Source of the DNA: Ruminiclostridium sp.
GTDB taxonomy: Bacteria; Bacillota; Clostridia; Oscillospirales; Ruminococcaceae
Direction of reading: 5' to 3'
Length of the DNA stretch: 49,471 nt
Assembly (NCBI GenBank): GCA_017625405.1
Contig: JAGALB010000056.1
Coordinates: forward strand, 1-49,471
The first letter of the stretch is position 1. Every line of letters starts with the position of its first letter. The notes under the pieces are model-generated. The model did not search any database. It had not been told where the DNA came from and saw only the letters and a list, made by a program, of their open reading frames with translations. This document shows, piece after piece, positions 341 through 5,506 of this stretch. The position numbers and the translations under genes are program-made.

Positions 341-369
341 TTGCAATATTAGTGGAAAAGTAGTATAAT
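341..369 (+). promoter_or_regulatory. Sigma-A promoter of the SNF2-like/GHKL operon
   Basis: TTGCAA (341-346) and TATAAT (364-369) are separated by exactly 17 bp. Transcription would start near 376, giving a leader of about 36 nt before the ATG at 412. GAAAGGA (396-402) is the ribosome-binding site. Confidence 0.75.
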
Positions 370-411: not shown

Positions 412-2373
412 ATGAATGAAAATGATTTAAAGTGGATTGCGGTCAATGGTCTTGATCTCGACACGTTTAATATCTGTTTGTCCGAAAAGCTTGAAAAATA
501 TGGCTGGTGCGTGGATTTCAGCGGCTTCGGCGAAGGAAAATGCCATAAGGCACAGCTTTGCATGTTTGATATAATAAACCGCAAGGAAAAGCCCAACATC
601 ATGATTGTATGCAGCGGCTCTTCCTGTCCCAGCTGGTATAACTCCCTGCTTATGGGTCTTGGAATTGACTTCAAGTTCCTTTCAGGGGCACGTGATGCCG
701 TGACTTACTATTCCAAGGAGCTTTCCAACCTCTTCATCATAAGTGAAGATGTGCTTGCTGACGCAGAAAACAACACCGTTCTTTCTCAGATGAAGAATGA
801 CGGCATTGTCTGGGATCTGATCGTTATTGATACAAGTGAGTGCATCGACGGTATCAATCCCTCTTTATATACCGAAAATATCGGCATGAAGGCTGACCGT
901 GTGCTTGTATTTGCACCTACTCCCGCAGCATATACGGATTCTCCCGATTGCGTAAAGGAAATCGTAACAGCTCTTTCGGCGAAGGAAGCTGACGTTTCTG
1001 CGCCCATAAATGCTGATACAATGAAATTCTCAATGGATAATCCGTATCTCAACTATCCCGACGAAAGCAATACTTTTGCAGAGATAAAGCCCGTATACTA
1101 TTCTTTCAGCGAAAGCGCAATTCCTCAGAATCTTCACATTGAAGAAATGCAGTCGGGCGTGCGTTACAGCGCAGGCGGCAACATCTTTGAAGAATACAAT
1201 CTTCCCGAAAGAAAGATTTATCTCAAGCCCAGATACAACAGAGCTGACGCAGAAACACTCAAGGAAGTGGACAAGAAGCTTGAAGCCTTCCTCAGCGTTA
1301 TCGAGCCTGTCATGAATTCAGATGACAAGACTGCGGTTGTTTATTTCGATACACCCGCAACCATGAACTATGTGGAAAAGGTTCTTTCCGCTATTTACTA
1401 CGATAAGGTAAGCAGCATTGCGGTATTTGCCAAGAACGTATTTGATACACGCCGCTTAAAGCAGTGGTATGAATCTGTCGGCGAGCAGAAGGTACGTGTT
1501 GTTCTTGCAAACGATGACCTTGATGATAACTTCGGCGTTTACAGCCCTGTTACACATATCATCAACTACGAGCTTCCCGACAACCCCGTAATTCTTCAGC
1601 AGCGCTTCAAGCGCCGTGGACTTATGGGCGGCAATGACCCCGAATTCGTGGTATTTGCCGATGAAAACGGTATGTTCGACAGCCGTATCCTGTTCAAGGT
1701 TCTCCCCGGCAATCTCTATAAGGCTTTCCGCCGTGAGCTTGCAGGTGAAAACGTTCTGTTCAGGGTAAGAGGCATGGACAAGGCTTTTGCGGATATGCTT
1801 GCTGATATCAAGTATATTGCGGATTATACAGGCGCAGTCGGCTCAAGCTTTGACGTTATCGCACGTTTCAAGCTGGATTACAACATTCCTGCCGCACGTA
1901 ACCTTACAACGGCTGCAAAGACCAACGAATATTCAATCAAGAAGCTTGGTCTTCTCGTAAACGCTCTGGGCGTACGTGATATCGTGGCAGAAAAGGATAT
2001 TGACAAGGAAGCTCTTGTTTCCGCAGTATCCGTCAAGATTGATGAAATCAAGAACGGCTTTACATATTTTGACGAGAATATGGTGCTCAGAACCGTACCC
2101 CGTCATTATACCGAAAACGATGAATACAAGAAATTCTCCGGCTTCTTAAGCGGTAATCCCTGTCTTGTGGGACGTGACCGTGCAAAGGTGAAGCTCAAGG
2201 AGATGACGGAAGGAAACAGTGGTTTTGCTTATTTAAAGAACGAGCTTGCGGATCTTTCCGATTCCATGAGAGCTGCTGTTATCTATAACATCTGGCGCTG
2301 CTGGCACAAGGAAATGGGCATCGGCGGTTCTTATGAAGAAATGATTAAAGCTTATAACGAAGGGGTGATCTGA
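412..2373 (+). CDS. SNF2/RapA-like helicase-fold protein with degenerate motifs
   Basis: This 653-residue protein has the layout of a SNF2-type superfamily 2 helicase, but most catalytic motifs have decayed. Residues 38-44 read GFGEGKC where motif I should be G-x-G-K-T/S. IMIVCSGSSCPSW (63-75) matches motif Ia of SNF2 proteins. Motif II is WDLIVIDTSE (134-143) instead of DEAH. VLVFAPTP (about 164-171) matches motif III (LLLTATP). In the C-terminal RecA-like lobe, HIINYELPDNP and QQRFKRRG (about 381-402) match SNF2 motif VI but lack its full arginine set. ATP hydrolysis is therefore doubtful and it may act as a DNA- or protein-binding scaffold. The next gene starts one base after the stop, so the two are translationally coupled. 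Codon use resembles the well-expressed flagellar genes. Family assignment rests on motif reading alone. Confidence 0.7.
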   Translation: MNENDLKWIAVNGLDLDTFNICLSEKLEKYGWCVDFSGFGEGKCHKAQLCMFDIINRKEKPNIMIVCSGSSCPSWYNSLLMGLGIDFKFLSGARDAVTYYSKELSNLFIISEDVLADAENNTVLSQMKNDGIVWDLIVIDTSECIDGINPSLYTENIGMKADRVLVFAPTPAAYTDSPDCVKEIVTALSAKEADVSAPINADTMKFSMDNPYLNYPDESNTFAEIKPVYYSFSESAIPQNLHIEEMQSGVRYSAGGNIFEEYNLPERKIYLKPRYNRADAETLKEVDKKLEAFLSVIEPVMNSDDKTAVVYFDTPATMNYVEKVLSAIYYDKVSSIAVFAKNVFDTRRLKQWYESVGEQKVRVVLANDDLDDNFGVYSPVTHIINYELPDNPVILQQRFKRRGLMGGNDPEFVVFADENGMFDSRILFKVLPGNLYKAFRRELAGENVLFRVRGMDKAFADMLADIKYIADYTGAVGSSFDVIARFKLDYNIPAARNLTTAAKTNEYSIKKLGLLVNALGVRDIVAEKDIDKEALVSAVSVKIDEIKNGFTYFDENMVLRTVPRHYTENDEYKKFSGFLSGNPCLVGRDRAKVKLKEMTEGNSGFAYLKNELADLSDSMRAAVIYNIWRCWHKEMGIGGSYEEMIKAYNEGVI

Positions 2374-2374
2374 G

Positions 2375-5300
2375 ATGAGCTATGAAGAAACAAAAGCGCG
2401 CGAGGCCAAGGCGCAGGAGTTAAAACAATATATAGGCGATTTCTACGAGGGTCACGCAGCAAATGACCGTGAAAAGCAGGATGCGGCTCTGAAGAAGATT
2501 CAGACTGCCCTCTTTACAGGTGATTCAGACAGTGAACCCTTCAAGGATTATTTCAACGAGGTGTTCAGCGGACGTACCGCCTTCAATACTCTCCTCAGTA
2601 TCAACGACTATCCCAAGGAAAGTATTTTAAGAGAACTTTTACAGAACACCTTCGGCTGTCACTATGAAACAAAGGATATTAAGGTCCTTCTGAACTTCTC
2701 CACAAACCAGCATCAGGTAAGCCTTTCCTACAACGAAGTGGGCTTTACCATGGAACAGATTCTCTACTACCTCAGCTTCGGCCGTGGTGAACGTGACTCT
2801 TCAGGCACAAGAGAAGGCCGTTTCGGTGTCGGTGCAAAGAGCGTATTCCTGAACGTTGAATGGCTGTCTCTCAAGTCAAACAACTTCAGCTTCAAAATCA
2901 AGAACGATAACGGTAACCTCAAGATTCTTGAACTCGACCTGTTCGGCACACAGTTCAAGGGCACCGAAATCGTGTTCAAGGTACGTGGTGACGAATTCAA
3001 CGCCATCATGGACAACTATCTTACACTTACTGACAAGCGTGGCGACTACATGAACCTCATGGAGCTCTGCTTCGCCTTCAACCGTAAGAAGTATATGGAT
3101 ACCCGTACAGGCAAGCCCGAGGAAGCTACTGACCGTACTTTCAACATTGCCGTTAAGGTAAACGATGAGCTTAAGACTATCTATAAGATCATGCAGTACC
3201 ATAAGGAGGGTGACAAGAATCCTACAATCCGCTTCATGCAGAACAACAAGAGCGTTATCGACTTCCTCTGCTATGAAAACGGCGGCTTCTCCTACCTTAT
3301 TCCTTATGCTGTTGCAAACGCAAAGAGAGCTGAGCTTGTAAAGCTTCTCTGCAACAAGTACAACTATTTCTCAACCTATGAGCTTACAGGTCTTTACAAG
3401 GAAAACTGTGAAGCCTTCATTGACGAGCATCTTTCCGCATTCTTCATCAGCGTCCCCAATGACTATATCACTCCTCACAGAACAGGTATCCGTCATGACA
3501 GCGAAAATGAAGTAACCGAAAGAATCGAAAAGGACCTTACCGAAATGGTAAAGGCGTACCGTCAGTACTTTGTACTGGCTATGCAGCCTGTTTCGGAAGG
3601 AAGCGACAAGTACTTCCTGTTCCCCAAGTCCTACGCATTTGAGTTCTTCAAGAACTTTATCCAGACAAGCAAGTTCGGCAAGAAGATTGAAGGCGAATTC
3701 CAGAACAGCCTTTCTGTTGTATTCCCCGGCGAAGCTGCACCCGTTCCTTATGAAGAAATCAAGGAAACAGGCTTCCAGTCCGTAGCTGAAAACGTGCCCG
3801 CTGAACGTCACGAAGACGGTACAGCCTACACCGAATATATCACAAATGCCCTTGACACACTCCGTGAGCAGGTTGACGAAGACGGAAACAAGTCCCTTTA
3901 CGTGGCTTACACATGGGAAAAGGAAGAGGGCGTTCAGGGTGGAAGAGAATACCTCTACGAGTTTACAAGAAACGGAAATGTTATATACGTTGACTCCAAG
4001 GCTTCTCCCAACCGTTCCGACAACAAGCTCTACTACGGCTTCAGCTCACCTGCAAAGAAGATGGCAGGCGCATTCTTAAAGGACAACGTTGTCCACAACG
4101 AAGTTGAGCTTGAACAGCTGATGGCAATGTATGACGAGATTTACTACGAAGATTACAAGATCGTAATGAAGTATTATCAGTTCTACATTTCCCACGGCGA
4201 AGAACAGCAGCATTATGAAGTGTCCAAGATGAATATCGGCAACCTCAAGAATGCCATGGACACTATCCAGAAGCGTCAGAACCGCTTTGATACACATCAG
4301 AACTACAATGAAGTAGTATCCATGATCATCAATACCTTTACACAGGGTAAGGATACTATGACATTCCTCAGAGAAATCAAGGAGCAGGGCGGTAAGATCA
4401 CTCTCCAGCTGGATATCAACAAGCGTTACCGCTTCAGCGCATACAATAAGCAGTTTATGATTCCTCCGTCCGTTTCCAACCAGGAAATGCTTGACCTTAT
4501 CGGTGACGCAGGTATGCTTATCAAGTGCGGTATGCTTGACGGCAGAGTGTTTGACTTCCCGCACACAAAGAGCCGTTTTGCTTTCGACAAGAATCTTCTT
4601 TCCGAAATGTTCGTTTCGGATACACTTACAGATGAAGATATTGCTGACCGTGCAGACAAGATGTATATCTGCGATCTTAAGATTGACAGAATTGCACTTA
4701 TCGGCGAAAATGACAAGATTATCAAGATTATCGAAGCAGGCACTGAAATCACACCTGAATGGCGTGAAAAGACACAGAAGTATATCGCTCTCAGAGGCGA
4801 CTATACAAAGCCTGAATTCGCAGATGTTGCCGAATATATCATCACAGGCGAAGCAGGCACCCGTCTCAGCGCACATTACCTCACTGCGGAAGAACCCAAC
4901 AAGGTTATTCCTGACCAGATTCCTTATTATTTCAAGCCCCTCCCCACTATTTCAAAGAGAGAGTTTGAATATTTAAGACAGCAGTGCCGTGATATTGCGC
5001 AGTATCGTGAAAACCGTTCCTACAAGAACTATTTCGCAAAGGATGTAAGCGGCAAGCTCTTCGGTTACGGCGGAAGCTGTTCTGCCTGCGGTTTTGAATC
5101 CCGTGTCATCAACAGCTTTGAGCTTAAGGACTTCGAAGTTGAAGTTCTTACAGCTGAAAGCGAAGAATTATTCCGTTTCAGCCTTTACTTATGCGCTAAT
5201 GACGCAGCTGCAGCGGGCGGCTGGCTTATCAGCGATGTAAGCATCGGCGGCATGTCCCCTGTAAGATGGCTTGAAGAAATCTCCAAGGCTGATACTATTC

Positions 5301-5476
5301 CGCCTGAGTTCTTATTCTGCCATATCAGCTACCGCACTCAGATTACATATGATATCTTAGGCGGTGACAGCAAGGCAAGCGGTGAAGTTATGTTCGATAC
5401 AGACCGCAAGGAGCTTGATATCACACTTACACCTCTTATGGCTGCCAAGTGGGTTGAAGACAACAAGCGTGACTAA
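2375..5476 (+). CDS. Large sacsin/NOV-like GHKL (Hsp90-type) ATPase
   Basis: This protein has 1033 residues. Its N-terminal region carries GHKL ATPase motifs: the N-box RELLQN (about 85-90), a G1-like box YNEVGFT (about 118-124) and the G2 box GRFGVGAKSVF (about 148-158). The last closely matches the KFGIGFKSVF style of the sacsin and NO VEIN families rather than MutL or gyrase. The usual G1 aspartate is Asn here, as in some sacsin-type domains. The remaining 850 residues have no fold I can name. Near the C-terminus SCSACGF (about 900-906) gives a single CxxC that could bind metal or form a disulfide. It follows the SNF2-like gene with a one-base gap, and AAGGGG lies upstream of the ATG. Bacterial GHKL ATPases paired with helicases often belong to DNA-defence or DNA-handling systems; here that role is inferred, and no nuclease or methylase is adjacent. 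Confidence 0.7.
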   Translation: MSYEETKAREAKAQELKQYIGDFYEGHAANDREKQDAALKKIQTALFTGDSDSEPFKDYFNEVFSGRTAFNTLLSINDYPKESILRELLQNTFGCHYETKDIKVLLNFSTNQHQVSLSYNEVGFTMEQILYYLSFGRGERDSSGTREGRFGVGAKSVFLNVEWLSLKSNNFSFKIKNDNGNLKILELDLFGTQFKGTEIVFKVRGDEFNAIMDNYLTLTDKRGDYMNLMELCFAFNRKKYMDTRTGKPEEATDRTFNIAVKVNDELKTIYKIMQYHKEGDKNPTIRFMQNNKSVIDFLCYENGGFSYLIPYAVANAKRAELVKLLCNKYNYFSTYELTGLYKENCEAFIDEHLSAFFISVPNDYITPHRTGIRHDSENEVTERIEKDLTEMVKAYRQYFVLAMQPVSEGSDKYFLFPKSYAFEFFKNFIQTSKFGKKIEGEFQNSLSVVFPGEAAPVPYEEIKETGFQSVAENVPAERHEDGTAYTEYITNALDTLREQVDEDGNKSLYVAYTWEKEEGVQGGREYLYEFTRNGNVIYVDSKASPNRSDNKLYYGFSSPAKKMAGAFLKDNVVHNEVELEQLMAMYDEIYYEDYKIVMKYYQFYISHGEEQQHYEVSKMNIGNLKNAMDTIQKRQNRFDTHQNYNEVVSMIINTFTQGKDTMTFLREIKEQGGKITLQLDINKRYRFSAYNKQFMIPPSVSNQEMLDLIGDAGMLIKCGMLDGRVFDFPHTKSRFAFDKNLLSEMFVSDTLTDEDIADRADKMYICDLKIDRIALIGENDKIIKIIEAGTEITPEWREKTQKYIALRGDYTKPEFADVAEYIITGEAGTRLSAHYLTAEEPNKVIPDQIPYYFKPLPTISKREFEYLRQQCRDIAQYRENRSYKNYFAKDVSGKLFGYGGSCSACGFESRVINSFELKDFEVEVLTAESEELFRFSLYLCANDAAAAGGWLISDVSIGGMSPVRWLEEISKADTIPPEFLFCHISYRTQITYDILGGDSKASGEVMFDTDRKELDITLTPLMAAKWVEDNKRD

Positions 5477-5480
5477 ATAA

Positions 5481-5506
5481 AAAAGGCGGCGAAAGCCGCC
5501 TTTTTG
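5481..5506 (+). terminator. Rho-independent terminator of the GHKL operon
   Basis: A 10-bp stem AAAAGGCGGC/GCCGCCTTTT (5481-5490, 5495-5504) is capped by a GAAA tetraloop and ends in a T-run, five bases after the GHKL stop codon. Confidence 0.9.

Follow-up and report, generated by a model that had tools for sequence, protein, structure and literature searches.

A gene pair for a probable pseudo-helicase and a GHKL ATPase, near-universal in a Ruminiclostridium genus, that may descend from a mobile SNF2-sacsin module

DISARM systems are composed of a DrmD or DrmA helicase with DrmB, DrmC and a methylase. The Hma, or DUF499-centred BREX-related, systems have a Swi2/Snf2-type helicase of RapA-like architecture (available portions of PMC8565338 and PMC12839542), and the second of these sources, in the same portion, describes inactive Swi2/Snf2 domains in PglZ and DndH that retain the scaffold, are catalytically dead and are proposed as sensors. 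In the restriction-modification (R-M) operons of prokaryotic MORC and paraMORC proteins, a GHKL ATPase stands beside a superfamily II (SF-II) helicase, including SWI2/SNF2 types, commonly with nucleases or methylases; the MORCs have an S5 motif, and the ATPases have been proposed to loop DNA with the SF-II helicases (Iyer et al. 2008, PMC2292703, in the part of the article available to us). Here we describe a two-gene locus that is like each of these systems in some respects, in a stretch of 49,471 nucleotides from Ruminiclostridium sp. (assembly GCA_017625405.1, contig JAGALB010000056.1, positions 1 to 49,471), hereafter the window. Its genes, identified from the list of open reading frames (ORFs) and by profile searches, are called H and G:

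412-2373, + strand: H, helicase gene, SNF2/RapA-like predicted pseudo-helicase of 653 residues
2375-5476, + strand: G, GHKL gene, sacsin-type GHKL ATPase of 1033 residues

The two ORFs lie on the same strand and are separated by exactly one base, as an earlier note on this DNA had reported. We estimate a probability of roughly 0.56 that the pair descends vertically, in domesticated form, from a mobile two-gene module of defence type; under the same joint estimate, that module would have combined an active DrmD/RapA-like SNF2 translocase with a sacsin-type GHKL ATPase of about 1050 residues bearing a C-terminal zinc site. What was computed is homology, the pattern of motif decay, linkage, coevolution, fixation, codon bias and the existence of intact mobile cousins.

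Sequence profiles place H among the SNF2/RapA-type SF2 helicases, a group defined by two RecA-like lobes with SNF2 motifs. As a single sequence, H matched no family in Pfam, and matched the PADLOC models HmaA (E 6.5e-12) and DrmD (7.1e-7). Among 70 homologues, PADLOC HmaA was found in 62, DrmA in 55 and a DrmD model in 50, Pfam Helicase_C in 40 and SNF2-rel_dom in nine, and the H profile matched RapA in the PDB in two stretches (E 1.6e-8). The SNF2 layout remarked on in the earlier note is therefore weak in the single sequence and firm across the family. Three catalytic motifs are degenerate:

523..543, + strand: degenerate Walker A GFGEGKC, residues 38-44 (GVGKT in the intact mobile cousins described below)
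826..840, + strand: degenerate Walker B IDTSE, residues 139-143 ([VI]DEAH in the cousins)
1597..1617, + strand: motif VI remnant, residues 396-402, the QQRFKRR region with R398 (from column counts)

For the motif counts, homologues sharing their last 100 residues were collapsed to 87 and the masked L165 was left out, giving 86. Walker A GK[TS] is present in 15 of these and Walker B DE in 26, including four with DE shifted by one (hence 22 for E141); none has both. Where the DE is kept, for example in the other genera, the Walker A is decayed (to EFGSEKY and similar forms), and the window H itself has GKC and IDTSE instead of the GK[TS] and DE of an active SNF2 ATPase. D140 and R398 occur in all 86, K43 in 79 and R401 in 76. 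Fitch parsimony on a midpoint-rooted GHKL tree gives 10 changes for GK[TS] and two for E141. From these motifs H looks CATALYTICALLY dead, probably a hydrolysis-dead pseudo-helicase beside a GHKL protein that keeps its motifs; the loss across the clade backs the word 'pseudo-helicase' used in the earlier note.

The partner, G, does contain the RELLQN and GRFGVGAKSVF boxes named in that note, together with an equivalent of the G1 box and a C-terminal cysteine motif:

2630..2647, + strand: GHKL N-box RELLQN, residues 86-91 (REL[LFM]QN in 84/85 homologues)
2729..2746, + strand: G1-box equivalent YNEVGF, residues 119-124 (YNExGF in 79/85, six commonest variants only)
2816..2848, + strand: G2 box GRFGVGAKSVF, residues 148-158 (GRFG[VLI]G[AS]KSVF in 83/85, six commonest variants; one gapped)
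5078..5203, + strand: putative zinc site C902xxC905...LYLC940AND (C902 and C940 invariant, C905 in at least 90% of 69 sequences)

With the N-box E and N, the G1 and G2 boxes and a sacsin signature, G belongs to the sacsin-type GHKL proteins. NCBIfam P_loop_sacsin matched 29 of 30 G homologues (best 2.4e-9), PADLOC TmtA 22, Pfam HATPase_c_3 12 and SACS nine. Taken alone, the window G scores 24.2 bits against the sacsin-type model, whose curated cut-off is 50, and it matches TmtA through residues 87-183 alone (96/1302 positions), which falls short of a full-length TmtA. The remaining ~800 residues found no convincing match in PDB and Pfam searches. The earlier note had described this body as having no known C-terminal fold, but it is not featureless, as it carries the conserved putative CxxC...LC zinc site at a place like that of the cousins' CQxC...LCPxC. 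The pattern CxxC...LCxN[DH] might conceivably be a degenerate HNH or treble-clef motif. In two genomes in which H was not found, G256 (L101:3162-4652) and G249 (L106:6496-6981, cut by the contig end), only the C-terminal half of G is kept, and these ORFs matched neither the GHKL ATPase domain nor the helicase; a C-terminal module kept alone in this way may have a function of its own.

The pair differs from each of the described systems. Because the start of the window is also the end of a contig, only 411 bases are visible 5' of H; the comparisons with Hma and DISARM cover the ORFs of the window. Hma comprises HmaA, the HmaB methylase and the HmaC ATPase; among the scanned window ORFs there is HmaA-like similarity only, no methylase or DUF499 ATPase partner was seen, and the window helicase is motif-dead and shorter. 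Similarly, DISARM is represented by weak DrmD similarity only, with no partners of the DISARM kind among the ORFs scanned. Unlike the MORC and paraMORC operons, the pair has no nuclease or methylase among the scanned ORFs, and a regular-expression scan with our own rendering of the MORC S5 motif, GhXhhpXXRhl, gave 0/85 among the G homologues, which places G outside the MORCs. The dead domain of PglZ and DndH is a single P-loop domain inside a larger protein, whereas H is a two-lobe protein with its own gene. Nuclease, methylase and transposase families matched none of the 20 window ORFs scanned with Pfam, so the earlier statement that no nuclease, methylase or mobile DNA is adjacent is true for these ORFs, the view upstream being 411 bases.

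Weak extra helicase matches in the genus scan led to two loci, L238 and L239, in which the gene for an intact SNF2 protein (GVGKT, VDEAH and QRIGRIDRxGQ) precedes, by 3 and 0 bp, the gene for a sacsin-type GHKL protein of 1142 and 1059 residues, respectively:

L238, 1278-8282, - strand: mobile pair, intact DrmD-like SNF2 and sacsin-type GHKL
L239, 1195-7419, - strand: mobile pair, intact DrmD-like SNF2 and sacsin-type GHKL

The L238 pair adjoins a type III restriction helicase and a methylase-like ORF, and the L239 partners match PADLOC DrmD (1e-97) and TmtA (9.5e-61, over 3-800). The L239 GHKL protein matched 10 plasmid records, of which the top five listed (H2-H6) were examined. In four of the five, namely two from Rhizobium, a conjugative plasmid of Ensifer (L243) and a plasmid of Methanomethylovorans, a helicase matching the L238/L239 SNF2 lies directly 5' at 0-5 bp; in the Methanomethylovorans plasmid a restriction endonuclease gene is near the pair, and in the fifth plasmid (Chryseobacterium) a different helicase is beside the GHKL gene. 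In all, an intact SNF2 immediately before a GHKL protein of 1034-1142 residues, with a gap of 0-5 bp, was recognized in L238, L239, L241, L242, L243 and L245, and the GHKL proteins of these pairs carry the C-terminal CQxC...LCPxC. Among the cousin loci reached through the GHKL protein, four of the five with a CQxC...LCPxC-type GHKL of ~1030-1115 residues have SNF2 upstream. No SNF2 match was found beside the GHKL genes of viral contig L240 and class genomes L248 and L249, and the cousin-GHKL profile matched 2/391 genomes of the class sample, neither with SNF2. L248 (5759-10531) and L249 (2901-7769), from two other families of the class, contain single open frames for sacsin-type GHKL proteins of 1591-1623 residues, adjoined in L249 by a transposase-like ORF (named from sequence reading). 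The earlier note knew of no named system with this pair alone; SNF2-sacsin pairs do occur, both next to R-M genes and on plasmids, and the GHKL family has a TmtA model in PADLOC. In the open-access literature we found no paper describing the mobile pair, nor, among papers on HmaA, TmtA and GHKL or sacsin proteins with SNF2, one describing the window pair.

Comparison of the H profile with six intact SNF2 proteins gave a collinear match that runs through the two lobes for 445 columns (prob 98.1, E 9e-14), the first ~140 profile columns of the cousins having no counterpart in H, and G matched the cousin GHKL profiles in the ATPase domain over 101 columns (prob 91.4, E 9e-7). Judged by these profiles, H is descended from, or closely related to, SNF2 proteins of the cousin type. 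The window and mobile pairs are alike in gene order, 0-5 bp spacing, N-terminal sacsin GHKL domain, C-terminal CxxC...LC and SNF2 core. However, the mobile helicase is intact and 1015-1191 residues long, whereas that of the window is motif-dead and 653 residues long, and the mobile pairs are sporadic and plasmid- or R-M-associated in the loci opened, whereas the window pair is near-universal in its genus. With order and homology shared and the intact helicase and mobility absent, the window pair would, on sequence grounds, be a derivative of the mobile SNF2-sacsin pair rather than a member of it. Common descent is the simplest account, because the order, the spacing, the similar GHKL length and the zinc-site position are shared.

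Whereas defence genes are usually patchy within a lineage, the two genes of this defence-type pair are near-universal across the ~70 sampled species of one genus. The genome samples are draws, not all species, and include many incomplete metagenome-assembled genomes (MAGs). H was found in 66 of 71 genus genomes (39/41 good ones) and G in 69 of 71 (41/41 good), some matches being fragments. In the family sample (247 genomes), full-length G occurs in 8 genomes of 3 genera, and these 8 are also the genomes with full-length H; three further G matches and two further H matches are partial and fall on different GHKL or helicase proteins. The order and class samples were searched with GHKL only, and G was not found outside its own genus in either (8/245 and 2/391, all own genus). 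A named genome collection contained 121 stretches encoding a relative. Most of the 80 retained are MAGs with the title Ruminiclostridium sp., Oscillospiraceae bacterium or uncultured Clostridia, and the titles of some point to deer, goat or rumen samples. G had no match in plasmid records.

In 39 of 69 pairs, H and G are -1 to 2 bp apart; the spacing is 3-105 bp in 28 more and 224 bp in one, and the remaining pair overlaps by 125 bp, dependent on the ORF start chosen. The genomes without an H match are G249, G256, G283, G284 and G301 (completeness 72-96%); besides the truncated G of G249 and G256 mentioned above, G is shortened or diverged in G283 and G284 and was not found in G301. Conversely, G261 has an H fragment at a contig end without G. 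Tree distances of H and G correlate at 0.83, and at 0.79 after removal of species distance (permutation p 0.002, 24 loci), whereas partial correlations of H or G with FtsL or MraZ range from -0.19 to 0.08. Pairwise identities of G and H also follow those of RsmH, Mur and SpoVD (Mantel 0.38-0.48, p 0.001, 26 loci; RsmH-Mur 0.35). H and G are thus adjacent and coevolving.

Neighbourhoods were compared in 75 non-redundant loci, 72 of them with the GHKL gene of the pair, and neighbouring genes were named from translations, not by family search. Genes like mraZ-rsmH-ftsL-spoVD-mur-mraY lie 3' of the pair in 26-28/75 loci, including a g219 genome, pgk/tpiA/gpmI-like genes lie 5' in 14-16/75, and rnf-like genes lie 3' in 12-13/75, including three g214 genomes; the window locus has none of these neighbours. 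The other three loci, L202-L204 (genera g216 and g231), were rejected as pairs: their short GHKL matches are HSP90-like proteins of 583-619 residues, with no SNF2-like neighbour recognized on reading.

The codon adaptation index (CAI), for which 22 ribosomal-protein genes of this genome, chosen from their translations, served as reference, is 0.657 for G (7th of 32 window ORFs) and 0.539 for H, compared with a leave-one-out mean of 0.751 (0.632-0.844) for the ribosomal genes, 0.815 for flagellin and 0.861 for glutamate dehydrogenase. With a glycolytic reference in 14 loci, the values are 0.702 for G, 0.740 for Pgk, 0.709 for TpiA, 0.677 for H and 0.633-0.680 for division and cell-wall (dcw)-type genes. 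The mean effective number of codons is lowest for G among 11 gene sets, which differ in locus number (45.2; Pgk 46.0, H 46.6). The codon use of highly expressed genes that the earlier note ascribed to both genes therefore holds for G and less so for H.

Such a bias would also suit an abundant chaperone. G shares its sacsin-type ATP-binding domain with sacsin and HSP90-like ATPases, the HSP90 model PRK14083 matched 4/30 G homologues, and a PDB search with G gave a non-significant htpG match (E 1.3), all in keeping with a proteostasis machine in which the pseudo-helicase serves as adaptor. We consider this quite improbable: the genome already has a gene for an HtpG-like protein (L212, an identity read from its sequence), an SNF2 partner speaks for nucleic acids, and R-M genes are found beside or near some of the mobile cousins. 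The pair also differs from sacsin and HSP90-like ATPases in being a prokaryotic two-gene unit with an SNF2 partner, and DnaJ and HEPN families gave no match in the Pfam scans. Replacement of a lost housekeeping GHKL or SMC protein was rejected for the proteins sought: HtpG-like, MutS-MutL-region, SMC-like and RecG-like proteins, some of them named by reading the sequence, are all encoded in this genome.

The families nearest to H and G are those of defence (HmaA/DrmD and TmtA), and the pair could still be an active, constitutive anti-phage system in which the pseudo-SNF2 protein senses foreign nucleic acid, as proposed for the dead domains of PglZ and DndH, and the GHKL protein is the effector switch. 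Mean tree distances are 2.27 for H, 1.34 for G, 0.85 for RsmH, 1.12 for SpoVD, 1.15 for MurE, 0.69 for MraY, 1.73 for FtsL and 1.36 for MraZ, so that H evolves 2-3 times faster than the four housekeeping proteins at 0.69-1.15, a rate that might fit an invader-facing part. Nevertheless, a pair that is near-universal in its genus, mostly in one copy and with core-type neighbourhoods in many species is unlike patchy defence, G has the codon bias of highly expressed genes, and a nuclease or toxin partner was not seen in the window; fixed immunity is therefore unlikely in our view.

Several results weigh against descent from the mobile module. No alignment joins the last ~180 columns of the H profile to the final ~335 of the cousins, and H may come from another SNF2 stock, as HmaA, not DrmD, is the PADLOC model matched by the largest number of its homologues. 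GHKL homology to the cousins is significant in the ATPase domain only, the zinc site of G being in register with CQxC...LCPNC of the cousins without significance (E 0.26), and of the eight cousin loci reached through the GHKL protein only four have SNF2 upstream. Fitch parsimony scores the root as lacking both GK[TS] and E141; we therefore claim no intact ancestor within the clade, and reciprocal motif loss in H could hide residual hydrolysis. One G ORF, in L083 (G251), has no G2 box, yet the helicase is kept. The ordinary neighbours FtsL and MraZ also give a partial correlation of 0.42 (p 0.002), and in maximum-likelihood tree distances from 24 loci H and G correlate with the four housekeeping proteins at 0.39-0.62 and 0.49-0.57, respectively, less closely than these do among themselves (0.44-0.72). 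The lack of significance outside the ATPase domain, with ~800 residues of G matching nothing convincing, would also be expected had the pair arisen within the lineage from an orphan GHKL protein and a cellular SF2 helicase, its likeness to the mobile pairs being at superfamily level. This convergence seems rather unlikely, given the same gene order, the near-zero spacing, the similar GHKL length, the CxxC...LC in a like place and the significance of both partners in profile comparison.

For a domesticated descendant of the mobile module we propose the following mechanism, in which we infer a dead ATPase, a shared mRNA, a physical complex, clamp action and a nucleic-acid substrate. The SNF2 partner would have been shortened in this lineage and its hydrolysis switched off, with the two-lobe scaffold and the phosphate contacts K43, D140 and R398 kept. 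GHKL proteins dimerise upon ATP binding; from this, the DNA looping proposed for MORC-type ATPases and the sensor role proposed for the dead domains of PglZ and DndH, we suggest that G alone would drive the clamp and that H would be a nucleotide-locked sensor of nucleic acid. The GHKL subunit would be the sole motor, closing on ATP as a dimeric clamp, and the pseudo-SNF2 subunit, translated from the same mRNA, would partner it as a sensor of nucleic acid or nucleotide state, loading the clamp or gating it. Production of the complex would be constitutive, and its target would probably be the cell's own or incoming DNA.

The earlier note had wavered between a core machine and a domesticated defence unit. 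Genus-wide, mostly single-locus inheritance supports the latter, and so do the mobile cousins, whose genes stand in the same order and whose helicase is intact; the core-machine reading may hold as well, as both can be true of an exapted module. In a more tentative and doubtful extension, an antiviral-type SNF2-sacsin module would have become, by exaptation, a bacterial equivalent of the MORC-type DNA clamps, a machine for handling the chromosome or RNA that is abundant and possibly essential; jointly with this, the ATPase work would possibly fall wholly on the GHKL clamp, the former motor being a nucleotide-locked sensor. With one enzyme apparently dead, the other conserved, and cell-wall and glycolysis genes alongside in many species, the pair lends itself to study of how an immune module could turn into a housekeeping part, and the mobile SNF2-sacsin pair on bacterial and archaeal plasmids merits interest in phage defence.

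Around the pair, the following signals were seen:

341..369, + strand: sigma-70-like promoter TTGCAA-N17-TATAAT, 10/12 matches to consensus
5480..5505, strand-neutral: perfect hairpin AAAAAGGCGGC-GAAA-GCCGCCTTTTT, listed by the terminator scan on the - strand only

The promoter upstream of H, which the earlier note called clean, is plausible, although the scan as a whole is close to chance (11 found versus 8.5 ± 3.0 expected). A sequence resembling a ribosome-binding site, GGAAAGG, is visible before H at 395-401. The strong terminator of that note corresponds to the hairpin after G, which is perfect and reads in both directions, and is probably a bidirectional terminator; the scan itself gave it on the - strand only. 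Further 3' are a small ORF, an extracytoplasmic-function (ECF) sigma factor and the flagellar genes FlgN, FlgK, FlgL and FliD; the - strand ORF beside the sigma factor is, by position, probably an anti-sigma factor.

A phage origin of the pair was rejected. The sole 'phage' match, MT835670.1 (L209, 1-22331), labelled 'Bacteriophage sp.' and UNVERIFIED, is a bacterial contig under a wrong label: across the pair and the genes around it, the identity to genus genome G108 is ~99%. The viral-contig match L208 is a generic GHKL protein with 25% identity over ~130 residues. Elsewhere in the window's own genome (L211:325-3073, - strand; G000:C55), an ORF of 559 residues with a GHKL domain directly follows a gene read from its sequence as cytosine-methylase-like, and the two probably form an R-M unit of MORC type.

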